DNA from: Streptomyces sp. NBC_00271
GTDB taxonomy: Bacteria > Actinomycetota > Actinomycetes > Streptomycetales > Streptomycetaceae
Reading direction: 5' to 3'
Assembly: GCF_036178845.1 (NCBI RefSeq)
Contig: NZ_CP108070.1
Coordinates: forward strand, 7,936,001-8,000,000
Length of the DNA: 64,000 nt
Shown here: positions 30,628-40,141 of the stretch, in pieces
How the letters are laid out: each line of letters begins with the position of its first letter
Position numbering within the stretch: the stretch's first letter is position 1
Translations under genes and position numbers: made by a program
The notes under the pieces: model-generated
What the model was told of the DNA's origin: nothing
Database searches by the model: none
What the model saw: the letters and a program-made list of their open reading frames with translations, nothing else

Positions 30628-31698
30628 GTGAGCGCAGGGTCGCCGATACCACGACTGCGCTGGCTGCTGCGCACCTTACGCACCCCACGTCGCCCCCAGA
30701 GCCTCACCGTCCTCGTCCTGCTCGCCGCCGTCGCAGCCCTCCTCCTGTGGAGCAGCTCGCGGATGGACAACTACGAGGAGAACCTCACCCTCAACCTCGG
30801 CACCGACATCGTCGGCGTCGTCGTCACCGTCTTCGTGATCGGCCCGCTGATCAGCCGCGCCCAGGAGGGCCGGGTCCGCGAACACACTCGGCTGGACTAC
30901 GAGTGGTTCAGCGCCCAGGTCTACGGCTCGACCTCGAACGTGAAGGTCCTCGACACCTTCTCCAACGTGTTCGGCCCGCAGTTCTCCGAGCGCCTCTTCC
31001 GCGGCATCAAGGCGGCCACCGAGCACGGCGCCCGCGTGCAGATCCTCCTCCTCGACCCCGACTCCCTCGCGGTCATCCTGCGCGGCCGTGAACTGGGCGA
31101 GCAGAGCGCCGACATCCGCCGCGACATCATGCGCAACCTGCGCACGCTGGACCGGTTCGCGCTCCGGCTCGACGAGAACTCCCGTCAGCTCCTCGAAGTG
31201 CGCCTCTGCTCCACCTCGCCCGGTGTGACCCTCTACCGCTGGGACGAGCGCTCCCTGGTCTCCTTCCTGACCGTCGGGCGTCTCTCCGGCGAGGGAGTCC
31301 AGCTGGAGGTCGCCGTCCACTCCCCGCTCGGCACCTTCGTCGAACAACGCTTCGACGAACTGTGGCAGCAGAGCAAGCCGATGGAGCGATTCACCCATCT
31401 GCCGCTGACCCTGGTCGACGCGACCGACGGCCGCCGGGCGTTCAGCTGTCGCTTCGTCTACGTGGACGACTGCCTGTACGTTGCCGGACACGACCTCGTG
31501 TCGTACATGGCCCGCCACCGCCTCGACCAACTCTCCGCCTACAGCGAGGCCTTGACCGCCGCCGGCGCGCACGAGCTGATCGTCGTGGACGACGAGAGCG
31601 AGCTGCACGGGCTGCTCATGCAGCGCTTCGCGGAGAAGTACGATGCGTCGGCGGGCGCCTTTGTCGAGTTGCGGCCGTTGGTCCTGGTCAGGGAATAG
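30628..31698 (+). CDS. membrane-anchored PLD-like (DUF5919-like) protein with a TTA codon
   Basis: A 356-aa protein with two N-terminal membrane segments (about residues 26-44 and 58-75) and a cytoplasmic domain. The piece VKVLDTF...GARVQILLLDPDS and the tail CLYVAGHDLVSYM recall the DUF5919/phospholipase-D-like nucleotide-signal effectors; catalytic HKD motifs are not evident. GTG 30628 follows GGAGGGAGCGCAG. Codon 17 (30676-30678) is TTA, the only in-frame TTA I found in this window, so translation should depend on the bldA tRNA. It ends 14 bp before the KamA-like gene, implying co-transcription. Confidence 0.7.
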   Translation: MSAGSPIPRLRWLLRTLRTPRRPQSLTVLVLLAAVAALLLWSSSRMDNYEENLTLNLGTDIVGVVVTVFVIGPLISRAQEGRVREHTRLDYEWFSAQVYGSTSNVKVLDTFSNVFGPQFSERLFRGIKAATEHGARVQILLLDPDSLAVILRGRELGEQSADIRRDIMRNLRTLDRFALRLDENSRQLLEVRLCSTSPGVTLYRWDERSLVSFLTVGRLSGEGVQLEVAVHSPLGTFVEQRFDELWQQSKPMERFTHLPLTLVDATDGRRAFSCRFVYVDDCLYVAGHDLVSYMARHRLDQLSAYSEALTAAGAHELIVVDDESELHGLLMQRFAEKYDASAGAFVELRPLVLVRE

Positions 31699-31712
31699 AG
31701 GCCGCGGCACAC

Positions 31713-33095
31713 ATGAGTTCAGCGCTCCACCCCGCTCAGCCCGCGAGACCCGGCTCCGCGCACCTGAGCCTCCGGTCTCCGGACACCAGCTCCCGGTCTT
31801 CGCACCCGAGCCCCCGCTTTCGCGCCTTCACGCCCCGTGACCTGGACGGCCTGCTGAGGCGCGTGTCCCTGCCGCCCGCCGAGCGACTCGCCCTGCGGGC
31901 CGTGGCGGCCGTCCTGCCGTTCCGTACGAACTCCTACGTGGTCGACGAGTTGATCGACTGGTCGGCCGTGCCCGACGACCCGATCTTCCGGCTGACGTTC
32001 CCGCAGGCCGAGATGCTGCCCGAGCCCGACCTCAAGCAGATGGCGGAACTGCTGGCGCGGGACGCCCCGAAGGCCGACGTGCTGCGCGCGGCCCACGAGA
32101 TCCGGATGAAGCTCAACCCGCATCCCTCCGGCCAGCTCGACGCCAACGTCCCCGTGCACGAGGGGCGGCGCCTCACCGGCCTCCAGCACAAGTACCCGGA
32201 GACGGTGCTGATCTTCCCGCGCCAGGGCCAGACCTGCCACGCCTACTGCACGTACTGCTTCCGCTGGCCCCAGTTCGTCGGCGAGTCCGACCTGCGCATC
32301 GCCACCGACGACATCGCCACCACATCCGCCTATCTGCGCGCCCACCCGGAGGTCACCAGCGCGCTCATCACGGGCGGCGACCCGATGGTGATGAGCACCG
32401 AGGTGCTGCGCCGCTACGTCGAACCGCTCCTGGAGATCGAGTCGGTCCAGTCGATCCGCATCGGCACCAAGTCGCTCGCCTTCTGGCCGTACCGTTTCCT
32501 CACCGACCGCGACGCCGACGACGTGCTGCGCCTGTTCGAGAAGGTCGTCGCGAGCGGCCGCCACCTCGCGCTGATGGCCCACTTCACCCATCCCCAGGAG
32601 CTTGGGCCCCCGGTGGTGCGGGAGGCGATGCGCCGGGTGCGTGACACGGGTGCCGTGATCCGCTGCCAGGGGCCGCTGGTCAGGGGCATCAACGACCGTG
32701 CCGAGGCGTGGGCCGCGCTGTGGAACGAGACGACCGCGCTGGGGGCGGTGCCGTACTACCAGTTCGTGGAGCGGGACACCGGCCCGCAGGGCTACTTCGG
32801 GGTGCCGCTCGCCCGGAGTCACCAGATCTTCCGTGACGCCTACGCCCAGGTGTCCGGACTCGCGCGGACCGTGCGCGGCCCGGTCATGTCGGCGATGCCG
32901 GGCAAGGTGTGCGTGGACGGGATCACGGAGGTGGCTGGTGAGAAGGTCTTCGTGCTCCACCTCATCCAGGCTCGCGACCCGGAGCTGGTGGGCCGCCCGT
33001 TCTTCGCCGCGTACGACGAGAACGCCACCTGGTTCAGCGACCTAAAGCCCGCTTTCGGCGCGAGCCAGTTCCTGCCCGGCCTCGACCCGGTGTGA
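31713..33095 (+). CDS. KamA-family radical SAM protein
   Basis: A 460-aa radical SAM enzyme of the lysine 2,3-aminomutase family. The 4Fe-4S cluster motif is CHAYCTYCFRW (CxxxCxxC) near residue 175, then ALITGGDPMVMS and RIGTKSLAFWP. A Lys in SAMPGKVCVDG may be the PLP site, though it differs from the PGGGGK of true lysine 2,3-aminomutase. No partner subunits or EF-P gene lie nearby, so the substrate is open: lysine, arginine or a related amino acid. It is co-directional with the TTA-containing gene, and its 3' end overlaps the convergent permease by 54 bp. Confidence 0.85.
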   Translation: MSSALHPAQPARPGSAHLSLRSPDTSSRSSHPSPRFRAFTPRDLDGLLRRVSLPPAERLALRAVAAVLPFRTNSYVVDELIDWSAVPDDPIFRLTFPQAEMLPEPDLKQMAELLARDAPKADVLRAAHEIRMKLNPHPSGQLDANVPVHEGRRLTGLQHKYPETVLIFPRQGQTCHAYCTYCFRWPQFVGESDLRIATDDIATTSAYLRAHPEVTSALITGGDPMVMSTEVLRRYVEPLLEIESVQSIRIGTKSLAFWPYRFLTDRDADDVLRLFEKVVASGRHLALMAHFTHPQELGPPVVREAMRRVRDTGAVIRCQGPLVRGINDRAEAWAALWNETTALGAVPYYQFVERDTGPQGYFGVPLARSHQIFRDAYAQVSGLARTVRGPVMSAMPGKVCVDGITEVAGEKVFVLHLIQARDPELVGRPFFAAYDENATWFSDLKPAFGASQFLPGLDPV

Positions 33096-34475
33096 CGCCC
33101 GCTTCGGTGGGAGGGCCACATAGGCGAGGCCGCCGACCAGGCCCGACAGGACGAAGCTGCAGTCCACTCCACCGGTGAGGGACAGCAGCGGTCCCTGGTA
33201 CGACGGGAGGGAGACGGCCAGGAGGCCGGCGAACGCGCCCAGCGCCCAGGAGACCGTCGCCTGGACGTTCCAGCCGGCGCGGTACCAGTAGATCCCGCCC
33301 CGGGAGCGGCGGTTGAAGACCTGGAGGGCGTCCGGGTCGTAGATTCCGCGGCAGCGGGCGAAGCCGATGAGGGTGATGACCGCCCACGGGGTGCCGATGG
33401 CGGTCAGGAGAAGGACGAAGGACGTCATCGCGGACTGCGCGTTCCAGGCGTAGTGGCCGACGAAGACACAGACGGTGGCGACGACGGCGACCGTGAGGGT
33501 GGCCCGGGCGCGCGAGGCCTTCGGCAGGATCGCGTCCAGGTCCAGGCCCATGGAGTACAGCATCAGGCCCGCGTTGCCGACCGACCCCGCGGAGGCGGCG
33601 AGCAGCAGCGGGACCAGGTACCAGGTGGGGGAGGCGGAGACCAGCGGCCCCGCGTAGTCGAGGGCCGCGCGGGCGGCGTACGCCGTGAAGGTGCCGAAGA
33701 GCTGCGGGACCAGCAGCCCGGCGATCAGGCCCAGCCAGGTGGCGTGCAGAACCGTACGGGAGGAGTGCCGGGACGGGGAGATGTAGCGCGTGTAGTCGCC
33801 GAGCAGGGTGATGAACGCGATCGGTCCTGACAGGCCCGCCGCGATCGCCGCCAGCAGCCAGGTCGGCCAGAACGAGCCCAGCAGATAGCCGCCGGTCTCC
33901 GGGAGCGCGGCGGTGGTGAAGTGCGGCGCGTAGGCGAGCACACCGAGCGCGAGGAGCGCGGTCATGCCGACCGCGAGGACCCGGGACATCGCGAGCAGCA
34001 CGCGGTAGCCGTACACCGCGCCCGCGACGGTGGCGGCGGCGAGGACGGCGTACACGGCGGCGTACGACAGCCCGTTCGCCGGCAGCCCGAACAGGCGGCC
34101 GAGCACGCTCACCATCACATCGCCGCCGATCCAGACGGTCAGCGCGGTGTAGCCGAGGGCGAGCAGCAGCCCGACGACCGAGCCGACCAGGCGCCCGCGC
34201 ACGCCGAACTGGGCGCCGGAGGAGGTGGAGAGGTTCGTCGCCGTGCGCAGGGAGACCAGCGCGAGCGGCGCGGTGAGCGCCGTGCCGATCACCGTGCCCG
34301 CCACGATCGCGCTCACCGACGACCACCAGTCGAGCCCGAAGGAGGGTGGCAGCCAGCCGAAGATGATCACGCCCAGACAGAGGTTCGACCCCAGCAGGAT
34401 CGAGACGAGGTCCCCCGGCCCGCTGGTCCGTTCCTCGTCGGGGATGGTGTCGACTCCGCGCTGTTCGATCGGCAT
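33042..34475 (-). CDS. NCS1-family permease (cytosine/purine/allantoin type)
   Basis: A 477-aa transporter with about twelve hydrophobic segments. Features are IPDEERTSGPGDLVSILLGSNL before helix 1 (shown in part here), the NLSTSSGAQFGVRG stretch and FITLLGDYTRYIS, as in NCS1 nucleobase:cation symporters. AAGGAG precedes ATG 34475. It is divergent from the urease-like operon and shares its regulatory spacer, so the cargo is probably a nitrogen-rich compound used by that operon. Candidates are allantoin, hydantoin, a nucleobase or a guanidino/ureido compound. Confidence 0.88.
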   Translation of the reverse strand: MPIEQRGVDTIPDEERTSGPGDLVSILLGSNLCLGVIIFGWLPPSFGLDWWSSVSAIVAGTVIGTALTAPLALVSLRTATNLSTSSGAQFGVRGRLVGSVVGLLLALGYTALTVWIGGDVMVSVLGRLFGLPANGLSYAAVYAVLAAATVAGAVYGYRVLLAMSRVLAVGMTALLALGVLAYAPHFTTAALPETGGYLLGSFWPTWLLAAIAAGLSGPIAFITLLGDYTRYISPSRHSSRTVLHATWLGLIAGLLVPQLFGTFTAYAARAALDYAGPLVSASPTWYLVPLLLAASAGSVGNAGLMLYSMGLDLDAILPKASRARATLTVAVVATVCVFVGHYAWNAQSAMTSFVLLLTAIGTPWAVITLIGFARCRGIYDPDALQVFNRRSRGGIYWYRAGWNVQATVSWALGAFAGLLAVSLPSYQGPLLSLTGGVDCSFVLSGLVGGLAYVALPPKRASHRVEAGQELARAESGL

Positions 34476-34503
34476 GGCTGGTCTCCTTCGACGGCCGCCT
34501 GAG

Positions 34504-34591
34504 AGTTAGAGCGACGTTCAATGTCTGTGACCGAATACCGGATGTCAATGTTTCCTTTCCATGAATCTCGCGTTTAGAGTGGTGCTCTAAA
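34504..34591. promoter_or_regulatory. operator region between permease and urease-like operon
   Basis: A perfect palindrome TTTAGAG-TGGTG-CTCTAAA lies at 34573-34591, and a related half site TTAGAGC at 34506-34512. One lies near each divergent gene. The TetR encoded at the end of the operon (38132) is the obvious candidate ligand. Confidence 0.6.
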
Positions 34592-34618
34592 TCGAGGAAG
34601 GCAAGGAGGTGCCCGGAC

Positions 34619-35392
34619 ATGAGACTGACCCCCACGGAACGTGACCGGCTGCTGCTCTTCGGGGCCGCCGAGCTGGCCCGTGCCCGCCGGGCCCGGGGCC
34701 TCAGGCTGAACGTTCCCGAGGCGACCGCCCTCATCGCGGACACCGTGTGCGAGGCGGCCCGGGACGGGCGTCGGCTCGCCGAGGCGATCGCGGCGGCCCG
34801 GGCGGTGCTCGGCCCGGACGACGTCCTGCCGGGCGTCGCCGACGTCGTCACCGAGGTGCACGTCGAGGCCGTCTTCGACGACGGGTCCCGGCTCGCGGTC
34901 GTCAGCGACCCCCTCGGGGGCGGGCTGGGGGAGCGGGCGCCGGGCGCGCTGCTGCCGGGGCCGGCGCACGCCGAGCCCGCCGCGGTCGTCCGGCTGACGG
35001 TCACCAACACCGCGACCGTGCCCGTCTCCGTCACCTCGCACTTCCACTTCTTCGAGACCAACCCGCGGCTCGACTTCCCGCGGGCGGCGGCCTACGGGAT
35101 GCGGCTCGCGGTCCCCGCCGGGTCCTCCGTGCGCTTCGGGCCGGGGGAGAGCATCGAGGTCGGGCTGCTGCCCATCGGCGGTGAGCGGATCGCCATCGGC
35201 TTCGCGGGACTGGTCGACGGGCCCCTGGACGCGCCCGGGGCCAGGGAAGAGGCCCTGCGCAGGGCCGCCGCCTGCGGATACCTCGGAGCCGGGGATGCCG
35301 GGGACGCCGAGGGTGCCGAAGACGGCGGGGACGCCGGAGACGGTGGGGACTCCGGGGAGACCGGGGAAATTCAGGGAGCTGAGCCGCGATGA
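34619..35392 (+). CDS. urease gamma-beta fusion subunit, non-canonical
   Basis: A 257-aa fusion. Residues 1-100 match urease gamma (MRLTPTERDRLLLFGAAELA, ALIADTVCEAARDG, LPGVADVV). Residues about 110-225 match urease beta (VVRLTVTNTATVPV, SHFHFFETNPRLDF, AIGFAGLVDGP). The C-terminal 30 residues are a Gly/Asp/Glu repeat (GDAGDAEGAEDGG) written in near-repeated nucleotides. A strong AAGGAGG precedes ATG 34619. Fusion of gamma and beta is known in Helicobacter-type ureases. It overlaps ureC by ATGA. No ureD/E/F/G is found in the window. Confidence 0.88.
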   Translation: MRLTPTERDRLLLFGAAELARARRARGLRLNVPEATALIADTVCEAARDGRRLAEAIAAARAVLGPDDVLPGVADVVTEVHVEAVFDDGSRLAVVSDPLGGGLGERAPGALLPGPAHAEPAAVVRLTVTNTATVPVSVTSHFHFFETNPRLDFPRAAAYGMRLAVPAGSSVRFGPGESIEVGLLPIGGERIAIGFAGLVDGPLDAPGAREEALRRAAACGYLGAGDAGDAEGAEDGGDAGDGGDSGETGEIQGAEPR

Positions 35393-37065
35393 ATCCTTAC
35401 GAGTACGCAGCCACCCACGGCCCCCGCGCCGGCGACCGCGTCCGCCTCGGTGACTCAGGGCTGACCATCCGCGTCGAGTCCGACGCCCAGCGCTACGGCG
35501 ACGAGTTCCTCGCCGGCTTCGGCAAGACCGCCCGCGACGGACTGCACCTCAAGGCCGCCGCCGTCCGCGAGACCTGCGACGTCGTCATCAGCAACGTCGT
35601 GGTGATCGACGCGGCCCAGGGGATCCGCAAGGTCTCCATCGGCATCCGCGAGGGGCGGATCTGCTCGATCGGGCGGGCCGGGAACCCCGACACCCTCGAC
35701 GGGGTCGACGTGGTGGTGGGTACGGGGACGTCGATCGTCTCGGGCGAGGGACTGATCGCCACCGCCGGAGCCGTCGACACCCATGTGCACCTGCTGTCGC
35801 CGCGCATCATGGAGGCCTCGCTCGCCTCCGGCGTCACCACGATCATCGGCCAGGAGTTCGGGCCGGTGTGGGGCGTCGGAGTCAACTCGCCCTGGGCGCT
35901 GCGCCACGCCTTCAACGCCTTCGACGCCTGGCCGGTCAACATCGGCTTCCTGGGCCGGGGTTCGTCCTCTGACGCCGCCCCCCTCGTCGAGGCCCTGGCC
36001 GAGGGCGGCGCGAGCGGCTTCAAGGTGCACGAGGACATGGGCGCCCACACCCGCGCCCTCGACACCGCGCTGCGCGTCGCTGAGGAGCACGACGTCCAGG
36101 TCGCCCTGCACAGCGACGGGCTGAACGAATGCCTGTCGGTCGAGGACACCCTGCGCGTCCTCGAAGGCCGGACCATCCACGCCTTCCACATCGAGGGCTG
36201 CGGCGGCGGTCACGTGCCGAACGTCCTGAAGATGGCGGGGGTCCCGAACGTCATCGGCTCGTCCACCAACCCCACCCTGCCTTTCGGCCGGGACGCGGTC
36301 GCCGAGCACTACGGCATGATCGTCTCCGTCCACGACCTGAAGACCGACCTGCCCGGCGACGCGGCCATGGCCCGCGACCGGATCCGCGCCGGGACCATGG
36401 GCGCCGAGGACGTGCTGCACGACCTGGGCGCGATCGGGATCACCTCCTCGGACGCGCAAGGCATGGGACGCGCGGGCGAGACCGTACGCCGCACCTTCGC
36501 GATGGCCGGAAAGATGAAGGCCGAGCGCGGCGCCCCGGCGGACGTGGACCACGACAACGAGCGCGTCCTGCGCTACATGGCCAAGCTCACCATCAACCCG
36601 GCCATCGCGCACGGGCTCGCCCACGAGGTCGGCTCGATCGAGGTCGGCAAGCTCGCCGACATCGTCCTGTGGCGCCCGGAGTTCTTCGGCGCCAAGCCGC
36701 AACTCGTCCTCAAGTCCGGCTTCCCGGCGTACGGCGTCGTCGGCGACCCGAACGCCGCCACCGACACCTGCGAACCCCTCGTCCTGGGACCGCAGTTCGG
36801 GGCGCACGGCGCGACGCCCGCCGAGATCTCGGTCGCCTTCGTCGCCCAGGCCGCGCTCGACCAGGGCAACGACCTCATGCCGACGCGCCGGCGCCGGGTC
36901 GCCGTGCGCGGCACCCGCGGGATCGGCCCCGCCGACCTGCGCCTCAACTCCCGTACCGGATCCGTCGACGTCGACCAGCGCACCGGCCTGGTCACCCTCG
37001 ACGGCGACCCGCTGCGCTCCGAGCCCGCCGATTCGGTCTCCCTCAACCGCCTCTACTTCCTGTGA
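35389..37065 (+). CDS. urease alpha-like amidohydrolase with altered flap
   Basis: A 558-aa UreC homologue. The di-nickel ligands are all present: DTHVHLLSP, the carbamylated Lys and neighbours in GFKVHEDMGA, VALHSDGLNE, HIEGCGGGHVP and the Asp in TSSDAQGMGR. The mobile flap differs. Canonical MVCHHLD reads VSVHDLK (His codon at 36331), so the flap Cys is replaced by Val while the catalytic His stays. The Ala in SDSQAMGR is Gly here, and the GGGTGPAAGTHATT segment is shortened to GQEFGPVWGVG. I infer an active metal hydrolase with a remodelled pocket, perhaps for a substituted urea. It overlaps the next gene by one base (TGATG). Confidence 0.9.
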   Translation: MNPYEYAATHGPRAGDRVRLGDSGLTIRVESDAQRYGDEFLAGFGKTARDGLHLKAAAVRETCDVVISNVVVIDAAQGIRKVSIGIREGRICSIGRAGNPDTLDGVDVVVGTGTSIVSGEGLIATAGAVDTHVHLLSPRIMEASLASGVTTIIGQEFGPVWGVGVNSPWALRHAFNAFDAWPVNIGFLGRGSSSDAAPLVEALAEGGASGFKVHEDMGAHTRALDTALRVAEEHDVQVALHSDGLNECLSVEDTLRVLEGRTIHAFHIEGCGGGHVPNVLKMAGVPNVIGSSTNPTLPFGRDAVAEHYGMIVSVHDLKTDLPGDAAMARDRIRAGTMGAEDVLHDLGAIGITSSDAQGMGRAGETVRRTFAMAGKMKAERGAPADVDHDNERVLRYMAKLTINPAIAHGLAHEVGSIEVGKLADIVLWRPEFFGAKPQLVLKSGFPAYGVVGDPNAATDTCEPLVLGPQFGAHGATPAEISVAFVAQAALDQGNDLMPTRRRRVAVRGTRGIGPADLRLNSRTGSVDVDQRTGLVTLDGDPLRSEPADSVSLNRLYFL

Positions 37066-38117
37066 TGAAGGTGCACGTCATGACCCCTGCCGCCGACGGT
37101 TTCCGGATGCCCGCCGAGTGGACCCCGCACGAGCGCACCTGGATGGCGTGGCCGGGCCCCAACCCCACCTTCGACAACCCCGGCGACCTCGCCGAGGCGC
37201 GCGAGGCCTGGGCGGCGGTGGCGCGCGCGATCCGCCGGTTCGAACCGGTGACGGTCGTGTGCGGGCCGGGCCAGTCGCAGGCGGCCCGGGCGCTGTTCGG
37301 CCCGGACGTCGACACCGTCGAACGCGAACTCGACGACGCCTGGATGCGTGACATCGGCCCCACCTTCCTCACCAACGGGAAGGGCGAACTGGCCGCCGTG
37401 GACTGGACGTTCAACGGCTGGGGCGAGCAGGACTGGGCCCGCTGGGAGCACGACGCCAAGATCGGCGCGTATGTCGCGGACCTCGCGGGGGCGAAGACGT
37501 ACGCCTCGAAGCTGGTCAACGAGGGCGGTGCGATCCACGTCGACGGCGAGGGAACCGTGCTCCTGACCGAGACCGTGCAGCTCGGCGCCGAGCGCAACCC
37601 CGACTGGACGCGCGAGCAGGTGGAGGCGGAGATCCACGCCCACCTGGGCACCCGCAAGGCGATCTGGCTGCCGCGCGGGCTGACCGGCGACTACCCCCCG
37701 TACGGCTTCGGCACGCTCGGCCATGTCGACATCGTGGCCGCCTTCGCCCGCCCCGGAGTCGTGGTCGCGCACTCCCAGCCGGACCCGGCGCACCCCGACC
37801 ACGAGGTGACCAAGGAGGTCATCGGCCTGCTCAAGGCCGCGACCGACGCGCGCGGGCGCCGCCTGGAGGTCGTCGAGGTCCAGGCCCCGACGATCCTGGA
37901 GGCCGACGGTCACTGGGCCGACTACTCCTACATCAACCACTACCTCTGCAACGGCGGCGTGGTCCTGTGCGGCTTCGACGACCCGCGCGACGAGCTCGCG
38001 GCCGGCATCTTCCGACGGCTCTTCCCCGAGCGGACGGTGACACTGGTGGACGCACGTACGATCTTTGCCGGAGGCGGTGGCATCCACTGCATCACCCAGC
38101 AGCAGCCGAGGATCTGA
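37065..38117 (+). CDS. aguA: agmatine deiminase
   Basis: A 350-aa guanidino-group hydrolase of the PAD_porph family converting agmatine to N-carbamoylputrescine and ammonia. Motifs are FRMPAEWTPHERTWMAWP at the N-terminus, DDAWMRDIGPTFL, NEGGAIHVDGEG, the catalytic His in FGTLGHVDIV, and the catalytic Cys in GGGGIHCITQQQP at the C-terminus. ATG 37065 shares a base with the ureC stop; ATG 37080 is an alternative. No N-carbamoylputrescine amidase (aguB) is adjacent; a urease-like enzyme occupies that place. Confidence 0.95.
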   Translation: MKVHVMTPAADGFRMPAEWTPHERTWMAWPGPNPTFDNPGDLAEAREAWAAVARAIRRFEPVTVVCGPGQSQAARALFGPDVDTVERELDDAWMRDIGPTFLTNGKGELAAVDWTFNGWGEQDWARWEHDAKIGAYVADLAGAKTYASKLVNEGGAIHVDGEGTVLLTETVQLGAERNPDWTREQVEAEIHAHLGTRKAIWLPRGLTGDYPPYGFGTLGHVDIVAAFARPGVVVAHSQPDPAHPDHEVTKEVIGLLKAATDARGRRLEVVEVQAPTILEADGHWADYSYINHYLCNGGVVLCGFDDPRDELAAGIFRRLFPERTVTLVDARTIFAGGGGIHCITQQQPRI

Positions 38118-38131
38118 ACCAGGAGTCGCAC

Positions 38132-38734
38132 GTGGCAGGGGACAGCACGCCGCGGAGGAAGAACGCGCCTCCGCGCGAGGACGTGCTGGCCGCCGCCATG
38201 GACATGATCGCCGAGCGTGGTCTGGAGAAGCTCACCATGGCGGCGCTCGGCCGCGAGGTCGGCATGAGCAGCGGTCATCTCCTCTACTACTTCCACTCCA
38301 AGGACGAGCTGCTGTTGCAGACCCTGGAGTGGAGCGAGGGGCGGCTCGGCGCCGAGCGCGGCCGGTTGCTCGCCGCCCGGGGCACCGCCCGTGAGCGGCT
38401 CGACGCGTACGTCGACCTGTACGTCCCCGACGGCCACCGCGACCCGCACTGGACGCTCTGGCTGGAGGTCTGGAACCGCTCGCAGAACGCCGACGACGCC
38501 GCCCGCGAGCGGCAGGTCGCCATCGAGGGCGCCTGGCACCGCGACCTGGTCGCGCTGATCGCCGAGGGTGTCTCGCGCGGCGAGTTCCGGCCCGTCGACC
38601 CGGACCGCTGCGCCGCCCGGCTGCGGGCCCTGCTCGACGGCTTCTCCATCCATGTGGCGATCGGACTGCGCGGCACGGACAGAGAGCGGATCCTGCGCCA
38701 CGTAAGGGAGTTTCTGGACGAATCCCTGAGCTGA
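38132..38734 (+). CDS. TetR-family regulator of the agmatine/urease-like operon
   Basis: A 200-aa repressor from GTG 38132, with CAGGAG seven bases before it. The helix-turn-helix is visible (GLEKLTMAALGREVG, MSSGHLLYYFHSKDELL), as is a BetI-like C-terminal domain (RCAARLRALLDGFSIHVAIG). It follows agmatine deiminase by 14 bp, so it is the last gene of the operon. It probably represses it through the TTTAGAG/CTCTAAA palindrome upstream of ureAB (inference). Confidence 0.9.
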   Translation: MAGDSTPRRKNAPPREDVLAAAMDMIAERGLEKLTMAALGREVGMSSGHLLYYFHSKDELLLQTLEWSEGRLGAERGRLLAARGTARERLDAYVDLYVPDGHRDPHWTLWLEVWNRSQNADDAARERQVAIEGAWHRDLVALIAEGVSRGEFRPVDPDRCAARLRALLDGFSIHVAIGLRGTDRERILRHVREFLDESLS

Positions 38735-38821: not shown

Positions 38822-40141
38822 ATGGCACTCACGGGACGAGAGCACTGGAAGAAGATCTGGGTCGGCTCGGCGGGCAACATGGTGGAGTGGTTCGACTGGT
38901 TCGTGTACGCGAGCTTCGCCACCTACTTCGCCGGAGCCTTCTTCCCCGACGACAACCCCACCGCCCAGCTCATGAACACCGCGGGCATCTTCGCGGTCGG
39001 CTTCTTCATGCGCCCGGTCGGCGGCTGGCTGCTCGGCCGGATCGCCGACCGCAGAGGCCGCAAGACCGCCCTGACGCTGACCGTCACCCTGATGTCGCTG
39101 TCGGCGCTCCTCATCGCCTTCGCACCGACCTACGCGGTGGCGGGCTACGGCGGCGCCGTCGTCCTGCTCGTCGCCCGCCTGCTGCAAGGGCTCTCGGTGG
39201 GCGGCGAGTACGCGGCCAGCGCCACCTACCTCACCGAGGCCTCCGCCCCCGAGCGGCGCGGATTCGCCTCCAGCTTCCAGTACGTGTCGATGACCGCAGG
39301 GCAGATCCTCGGCCTCGGCCTGCAGATCATCCTCCAGCGCACCCTGTCCGACGACGCGCTGCACAGCTGGGGCTGGCGCATCCCCTTCATCGTGGGCGCG
39401 CTCGGCGCCGCCGTCGTCTTCTATCTGCGGCGCACGATGCTGGAGACCGAGGTGTACGAGGAGGCCGCGTCCGGCGAGGAGCGGGGCACGATGCGCGCGC
39501 TGTGGCAGCACCGGAGGGAGGCCTTCCTGGTCATCGCGCTCACGATGGGCGGCACGGTCGCCTACTACACGTACACCACCTACCTGACGAAGTACCTCTC
39601 CAACTCGGCGGGCCTGCCCAAGGAGACCGCGACCCTCGTCTCCTTCACCGCGCTGATCGTCTTCGCCTGTCTCCAGCCGCTCGCGGGACGCCTCTCCGAC
39701 CGTGTCGGTCGCCGGCCGCTGCTCATCACCTTCGCGGTGGGCTCGACGCTGCTGACGGTCCCGATCATGACGATGCTGGGGCACGTGGGCAGCTTCTGGC
39801 CCGCCCTCGGCCTGGCCCTGCTGGCCCTGGTGGTGGTCACCGGCTACACCTCCATCAACGCCTGTGTGAAGGCGGAGCTGTTCCCGACCGGCGTCCGCGC
39901 GCTGGGTGTCGCCCTCCCGTACGCCATCGCCAACGCCCTCTTCGGCGGTACGGCCGAATACGTCGCCCTGTGGTTCAAGGACGCGGGCATCGAGTCCGGC
40001 TTCTCCTGGTACGTGGCGGGGTGCGCGGCGGTGTCGCTGGTGGTCTACGTCACCATGCGGGAGACCCGCGACCTGGATCTCAACCGGGTCGGCACCGGCC
40101 GGGAACCCTCCTCGGAGCCCAAGGCGCGGCTCGCATCCTGA
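38822..40141 (+). CDS. MFS transporter, metabolite:H+ symporter (MHS) family
   Basis: A 439-aa permease with twelve predicted helices. SAGNMVEWFDWFVYASF at the N-terminus and LGRIADRRGRKTAL (motif A) are hallmarks of the MHS group, which takes up carboxylates, alpha-ketoglutarate, proline/betaine and similar metabolites. RLLQGLSVGGEYAASATYLTE is also typical. It lies 87 bp after the tetR gene in the same direction, so it may join that operon or be independent. A long hairpin follows the stop. Confidence 0.9.
   Translation: MALTGREHWKKIWVGSAGNMVEWFDWFVYASFATYFAGAFFPDDNPTAQLMNTAGIFAVGFFMRPVGGWLLGRIADRRGRKTALTLTVTLMSLSALLIAFAPTYAVAGYGGAVVLLVARLLQGLSVGGEYAASATYLTEASAPERRGFASSFQYVSMTAGQILGLGLQIILQRTLSDDALHSWGWRIPFIVGALGAAVVFYLRRTMLETEVYEEAASGEERGTMRALWQHRREAFLVIALTMGGTVAYYTYTTYLTKYLSNSAGLPKETATLVSFTALIVFACLQPLAGRLSDRVGRRPLLITFAVGSTLLTVPIMTMLGHVGSFWPALGLALLALVVVTGYTSINACVKAELFPTGVRALGVALPYAIANALFGGTAEYVALWFKDAGIESGFSWYVAGCAAVSLVVYVTMRETRDLDLNRVGTGREPSSEPKARLAS

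Follow-up and report, generated by a model that had tools for sequence, protein, structure and literature searches.

A urease-like gene lineage tied to guanidino deiminases in Streptomyces and distant Actinomycetota

Ureases are regarded as nickel enzymes which act on urea alone and depend on dedicated chaperones. The iron urease UreA2B2 of Helicobacter mustelae is helper-independent, and its substrate is urea as well. N-carbamoylputrescine amidase (AguB) has a nitrilase fold, unrelated to urease. For the ureABC genes of Bacillus subtilis we know of no deiminase partner. According to the accessible part of one source, these are structural genes without accessory genes, and encode a urease which acts on urea with a very low intrinsic activity (PMC8600894). 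Streptomyces coelicolor and S. avermitilis are described, in the available text of PMC2492869, as having one cluster made of ure(AB)C only, the UreC of which was placed with a proteobacterial group. In the accessible parts of two further sources, SCO5525-5526 are listed as urea-utilizing and SCO5527 as an ADC-pathway homologue (PMC3293853), and SCO5526-5524 are given as nrdABS (PMC4991794), in conflict with both other accounts. We describe here a locus of this kind found in Streptomyces sp. NBC_00271, within a window of 64,000 nucleotides (contig NZ_CP108070.1, positions 7,936,001 to 8,000,000, forward strand). As in B. subtilis only structural urease genes are present; fused ureAB, a ureC-like gene, a gene for a PAD_porph guanidino deiminase and a tetR gene follow each other head to tail, and an NCS1 permease gene is divergent from them. 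The analysis confirms the observation made in an initial annotation of the locus, and widens it: the urease-like proteins make up a separate, often helper-free lineage, repeatedly tied to guanidino deiminases. The deiminase link, an altered pocket or a substrate other than urea had no account in the literature searched, as far as the accessible texts go, few subscription journals being covered.

The association was monitored in 245 genomes of the order Streptomycetales, with thresholds of E <= 1e-100 for UreC and E <= 1e-60 for the deiminase. Some UreC is present in 231 genomes, the deiminase in 193. Among the matches listed, UreC-like and deiminase genes were each found in 149 genomes besides that of the window, and 130 genomes are common to both. 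The two genes lie at most 400 bp apart in all of these 130 genomes, an arrangement beyond chance; the pairing, on the conservation of which the initial annotation had let its interpretation depend, is thus kept wherever both genes are among the matches listed. Nineteen genomes have a listed UreC-like gene and no listed deiminase. Eighteen of them do have a deiminase, and the remaining one (G077; G and L numbers are our handles for genomes and loci), in which UreC is at a contig edge, is the only one of the 149 listed carriers with no deiminase match. In turn, 19 genomes have a listed deiminase and no listed UreC-like gene; the latter is cut by a contig end in G174 and G220, and gives a partial match in G184. 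Nine loci (L042-L047, L050-L052) feature ilvE, the deiminase within 1.0 kb, then TetR and cimA genes, and no match to ureAB, ureC or the permease was found there in 18 kb; a tenth deiminase-only locus (L041) ends at a contig edge. Seven of these ten loci were placed in the tree and form a single clade, hence one loss of the urease-like genes is enough. In this order the urease-like gene comes with the deiminase, and the deiminase can stand without the urease-like gene. Since one of the 149 listed carriers is without the deiminase, and nine deiminase loci are without ureABC, the urease-like gene appears to be subordinate to the deiminase gene. All Streptomyces carriers but five show at least two UreC matches, so that an additional plain urease would in many cases be superfluous.

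UreC-like and deiminase genes are paired in distant Actinomycetota too. Searching one genome from each species with a query alignment built from soil relatives returned 169 relatives. The best 80 loci were kept; their motifs led us to class the first 33 (L086-L118), several of them short, as urease-like, and the remaining 47 served as controls. A deiminase resides beside the urease-like genes in 7 of these 33 loci (tblastn), in gene orders differing from that of the window: it is downstream in L086, upstream in L087, L088, L089, L090 and L091, L088 and L089 sharing one strain number, and divergent in L097. The linked deiminases fall on either side of a 100/100 tree split, and form two deiminase lineages, one including Streptomyces and Solirubrobacter, the other L086, L087 and L097, which have long branches and lie next to true agmatine deiminases; according to a warning of the tree program, L087 and L097 are possibly joined falsely. 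In metagenome bins aquatic by title (L096, L098, L103, L107) the ureAB/ureC-like pair was found beside housekeeping-type genes (read by eye), and the genomes have no PAD_porph, UreD or UreG match. The urease-like gene of L101, titled Bifidobacterium breve, groups with aquatic actinobacterial bins, and the title is probably wrong.

Relatives 66-67% identical occur in four plasmid records, from Embleya, S. anulatus, Streptomyces NBC_00637 and Kitasatospora. UreAB and the UreC-like protein are encoded there (L188-L193; NZ_CP108786.1, NZ_CP109401.1, NZ_CP109408.1, NZ_CP109047.1) inside an apparent small nonribosomal peptide cluster. In the three annotated records the relative comes after adenylation- and condensation-domain, phosphotransferase and hypothetical genes. 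In NBC_00637 the hypothetical protein is similar to B12-binding proteins, with a score under the Pfam cut-off, and its gene is followed by one for a 2OG-Fe(II) oxygenase. In the unannotated Kitasatospora record, genes called by us and read by eye stand in a similar order. The metal site is intact in these relatives, which have the flap ATVHRLD and a loop of 21 residues; no deiminase was found near them. There is no evident role for urea hydrolysis in nonribosomal peptide clusters, which counts for a substituted urea as the substrate.

The UreC-like protein of the window keeps H134, H136, K217, H219, D221, H246, H272, H320, R336 and D360, in what we take to be Klebsiella numbering. The flap is VSVHDLK, SDAQGMGR stands where ordinary urease has SDSQAMGR, and the loop past the first metal ligands has 4 residues fewer than its counterpart in the canonical urease of the same genome; the alignment agrees on all these points with the initial annotation, which had read retained ligands and catalytic His, both motif changes and a shortened loop. 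In comparison with the canonical nickel ureases UreABC of K. aerogenes and S. pasteurii, Cys319 is changed to Val and Ala363 to Gly, no UreD or UreG gene is adjacent, and the protein lies outside the canonical clade. All ten metal and catalytic residues, including the bimetal ligands of urease and the lysine that is carbamylated, are intact in 278 of 278 urease-like proteins. Position 319 is V in 277 of them and I in one, and every one of them has G at position 363 and a loop of 21 residues; among 57 controls, by contrast, C319 occurs in 49, A363 in 50, and a 21-residue loop in none. The equivalog TIGR01792 (cut-off 680) is reached neither by the window protein (636 bits) nor by three relatives (497, 621 and 652), and the former does reach the broader subfamily NF009686. 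In a midpoint-rooted tree 20 canonical urease rows form a 100/100 clade which excludes the window protein. The ordinary ureases form a well-supported clade, to which the urease-like proteins do not belong. The H. mustelae iron urease (3qga) is not the closest structural match, and is unmentioned in the accessible part of PMC3856676. Two side observations concern the motifs. A Ktedonobacterales copy (L109:7001-8623) has changed motifs (SSDSLGMGL, and a broken HVEGAGGGH), and is perhaps a decaying or misread gene. The Haloquadratum urease has the flap VVHHLN and Gly363, against VCHHLN and Ala363 in Haloarcula (L138:7001-8662; L194:3947-5653), and the pocket loop is shortened in both.

A second, canonical ureC (47% identity) resides at about 2.58 Mb of contig C1, and the UreG and UreD matches of the window genome lie solely beside it. 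The initial annotation had noted the absence of ureD, ureE, ureF and ureG near the module; this holds for UreD and UreG, the two covered by the genome-wide search. No UreD or UreG was found by tblastn beside the urease-like genes in the 33 loci from outside the order. Thirty-one carrier genomes were then chosen, seven from Streptomyces (five of which picked for having no second UreC), two from other Actinomycetota, and 22 which are those behind the loci. UreG is present in 7 of the 31, UreD in the same 7, and both are absent in 24. Nine carriers have quality figures and are all at least 96% complete; five of these lack both proteins (G010, G134, G206, G234, G445). The absence is weaker in the 22 locus-derived genomes, for which there is no completeness figure, and several of which are small metagenome bins. 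Since UreD and UreG are both absent in most of the carriers examined, the urease-like complex probably matures without them.

The name agmatine deiminase, assigned to the neighbouring gene in the initial annotation, could not be maintained. The window deiminase, encoded by a single-copy gene, scores 318 bits against TIGR03380 (agmatine deiminase), under the cut-off of 381.8, and all the five linked deiminases scanned fall below it (253-318 bits). L167 and L166, true agmatine deiminases encoded elsewhere in the genomes of L083 and L092, which have urease-like genes too, reach 589 and 562 bits. The window protein shares with AguA/AIH the pentein fold, the catalytic Cys, His and Asp, kept in the alignment, and the equivalents of Trp91 and Trp125; it differs in having Gly in place of Asp220 and of an Asn near the catalytic Cys. 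In the accessible part of its description, Asp220 of MtAIH holds the amine of agmatine (PMC6447857). The equivalent residue, located by our own count along the MtAIH sequence, is Gly in the window deiminase and, L097 excepted, in all linked deiminases of the alignment, and Glu in SmAIH. MtAIH has the longer gate loop, by about 15-18 residues. Agmatine deiminase was rejected as a firm identity because of the curated score, the gate loop and the amine-holding residue; family and retained catalytic residues point to a probable deiminase activity on a guanidino compound. The initial annotation had also noted that an N-carbamoylputrescine amidase gene is absent from the locus, and conceded that an aguB elsewhere in the genome could account for the breakdown of N-carbamoylputrescine. 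The best match to TIGR03381 in the window genome has 262 bits, under the cut-off of 410, and no AguB above the cut-off was found in the 245 genomes. The genome has two genes resembling aguB (262 and 259 bits), which were set aside: having aminotransferase-like and hydantoinase-like (read by eye) genes and an NCS1 permease as neighbours, they probably encode beta-ureidopropionases of pyrimidine breakdown.

The features of the locus are collected in Table 1. The ureAB and ureC genes overlap by 4 nt, ureC and the deiminase gene by 1 nt, and the gene order initially read is correct. In Streptomyces, the permease is divergent from ureAB in 36 of 41 loci examined, and was not found in the other five (L016, L024, L057, L061, L062). 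The symporter-like gene is present in 2 (L055, L056) of the 5 loci L053-L057, which have ureAB, ureC and the deiminase. Two operator-like sites precede the divergent genes. Allowing at most 2 mismatches, the window has 3 matches, all at these two sites (one on both strands), versus 0.08 expected; at most 1 mismatch, nothing more was found in the whole 12.3 Mb genome, which offers no further member of a TetR regulon as a substrate clue. Of 187 loci, 48 contain an exact match; three of these (L001, L186, L187) are the window's own sites. Nine deiminase-only loci have a site (at most 2 mismatches) no more than 60 bases upstream of the deiminase, and the same pattern detects none in L087 and L088. 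In genomes lacking ureABC, too, the TetR gene adjoins the deiminase. We propose that the TetR protein is the repressor of the module, and may bind the two sites. A guanidine riboswitch was considered as a substrate clue and dropped, since the Rfam scan, run on 13.5 kb of the window and on nine loci, gave no match. The stretch separating ilvE from the permease (window 30628-33095) holds an unidentified open reading frame and a gene for a radical SAM protein resembling KamA (127 bits, against a cut-off of 199); this gene shares 54 bases with the 3' end of the permease gene. Neither had a tblastn match in 17 related loci, some of which end at contig edges.

Table 1. Features of the urease-like/deiminase locus, in window coordinates
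Feature	Position	Strand	Remarks
NCS1-family permease (PF02133)	33042..34475	-	Pfam 345 bits; TIGR00800 49 bits vs cut-off 353
Operator-like site TTAGAGCGACGTTCAAT, permease side	34506..34522	+	
Palindromic operator-like site TTAGAGTGGTGCTCTAA, ureAB side	34574..34590	+	
Urease gamma/beta fusion (ureAB)	34619..35392	+	NF009671 317 bits, above cut-off 243
Urease alpha-like (UreC-like), altered flap, shortened pocket loop	35389..37065	+	
PAD_porph guanidino deiminase, below agmatine deiminase cut-off	37065..38117	+	
TetR/BetI-type regulator	38132..38734	+	PF13977 and PF00440
Major facilitator superfamily metabolite:H+ symporter-like, optional neighbour	38822..40141	+	

The best-supported reading, to which we give a probability of about 0.43, is that the complex is a helper-independent ureido hydrolase working downstream of the deiminase. 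According to this view, the permease would import a guanidino compound, the deiminase would swap its C=NH for C=O, yielding a ureido compound R-NH-CO-NH2 and ammonia, and the UreAB/UreC-like complex would hydrolyse the latter to R-NH2, CO2 and ammonia. Hydrolysis would take place at a urease-type bimetal centre on a carbamylated lysine, the residues of which are in place, in a complex plausibly matured without UreD and UreG. The TetR protein would probably sit on the two operator-like sites until released by a pathway compound, and the whole would be a self-regulated catabolic module. A substituted urea is favoured because of the subordination to the deiminase, the frequent second UreC and the relatives in nonribosomal peptide clusters. 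Several data weigh against this reading. The residues by which canonical urease handles urea are all retained, and flap positions 321 and 323 vary from subgroup to subgroup. G363 occurs also in 7 of the 57 controls, the relatives in nonribosomal peptide clusters retain A363, and the Haloarcula urease, which has accessory and urea-transport genes adjoining, combines an equally short loop (21 residues) with the normal flap VCHHLN and A363. Ala363Gly and the short loop are therefore weakened as marks of a new substrate, and the pocket changes are no proof of one. A PAD_porph gene is absent from 14 of the 31 carriers, hence the substrate must have another source elsewhere, and in Pseudonocardia (L110) deiminases were found outside the urease-like locus. 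In three loci (L114, L116, L118) the urease-like gene is near genes for agmatinase-family ureohydrolases, which make urea; those of L114 and L118 score above the agmatinase cut-off, and the neighbour in L116 is a similar one. A urea-amidolyase-associated-like protein is encoded in L114 and L116 as well, and L118 also has genes for an amidase and a PotB-like permease. Finally, B. subtilis provides the example of an accessory-free urease acting on urea.

The chief rival explanation is a true, helper-independent urease, fed with urea produced from free guanidine by the deiminase or, in other genomes, by ureohydrolases, in which the flap and loop changes would reflect another metal or self-activation rather than another substrate. 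The B. subtilis ureABC genes and the H. mustelae iron urease UreA2B2 are precedents for it, all catalytic residues are kept, and the Haloarcula loop and the ureohydrolases of the three loci fit as well. The urease-like gene has moreover been retained in four genomes which have neither a second UreC nor UreG. The operon-type deiminase occurs in 13 of 49 Streptomyces genomes with canonical urease only, versus 0 of 13 without UreC, a difference which is suggestive of urea and not significant (Fisher p 0.053, kinship uncorrected). Yet a second UreC is often alongside, just one of the 149 listed carriers of the order is without deiminase, relatives reside also in nonribosomal peptide clusters, and no guanidine riboswitch was detected; on balance, we regard a true urease as unlikely, if a serious contender. 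The route put forward in the initial annotation, in which agmatine is converted to N-carbamoylputrescine and the urease-like complex, standing in for AguB, carries out the same net reaction to give putrescine, CO2 and ammonia, appears improbable. The deiminase does share fold and family with agmatine deiminases, and the lack of a curated AguB in the 245 genomes would suit the proposal. A weak hint comes from a Solirubrobacteraceae metagenome bin (L092:1545-4884), where putrescine-carbamoyltransferase-like and APC-antiporter-like genes are divergent from ureAB/ureC-like; the putrescine model fits the carbamoyltransferase best (455 bits, cut-off 500), but the protein passes the ornithine model too. 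The linked deiminases scanned all miss the AguA cut-off, the amine-holding Asp is lost and the gate loop is shorter, and in the L083 and L092 genomes a true agmatine deiminase is encoded away from these loci. NCS1 carriers are, to our knowledge, not known for polyamines, which also counts against this route. Of the initial interpretation, the conserved deiminase module, the altered pocket, a probable action after the deiminase and the lack of a curated AguB have stood, and N-carbamoylputrescine as the substrate has found no support. An amidohydrolase performing another reaction on the urease scaffold, as the opening of a cyclic ureide, of which the NCS1 permease would be the clue, is the most improbable of the explanations considered.

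If the ureido hydrolase reading is correct, the urease-like proteins could represent a new class, that of helper-independent ureidases for N-substituted ureas, placed outside all canonical ureases, combined more than once with guanidino deiminases to salvage nitrogen, and also taken up into the biosynthesis of nonribosomal peptides; we advance this as a tentative proposal, the odds being somewhat against it. The urease fold would then have a second substrate, guanidino nitrogen a new route, and the bimetal site a way to mature without helpers. The "urease" annotations in Streptomyces, such as that of SCO5525-5526 in the accessible part of PMC3293853, may in that case overstate ureolysis.
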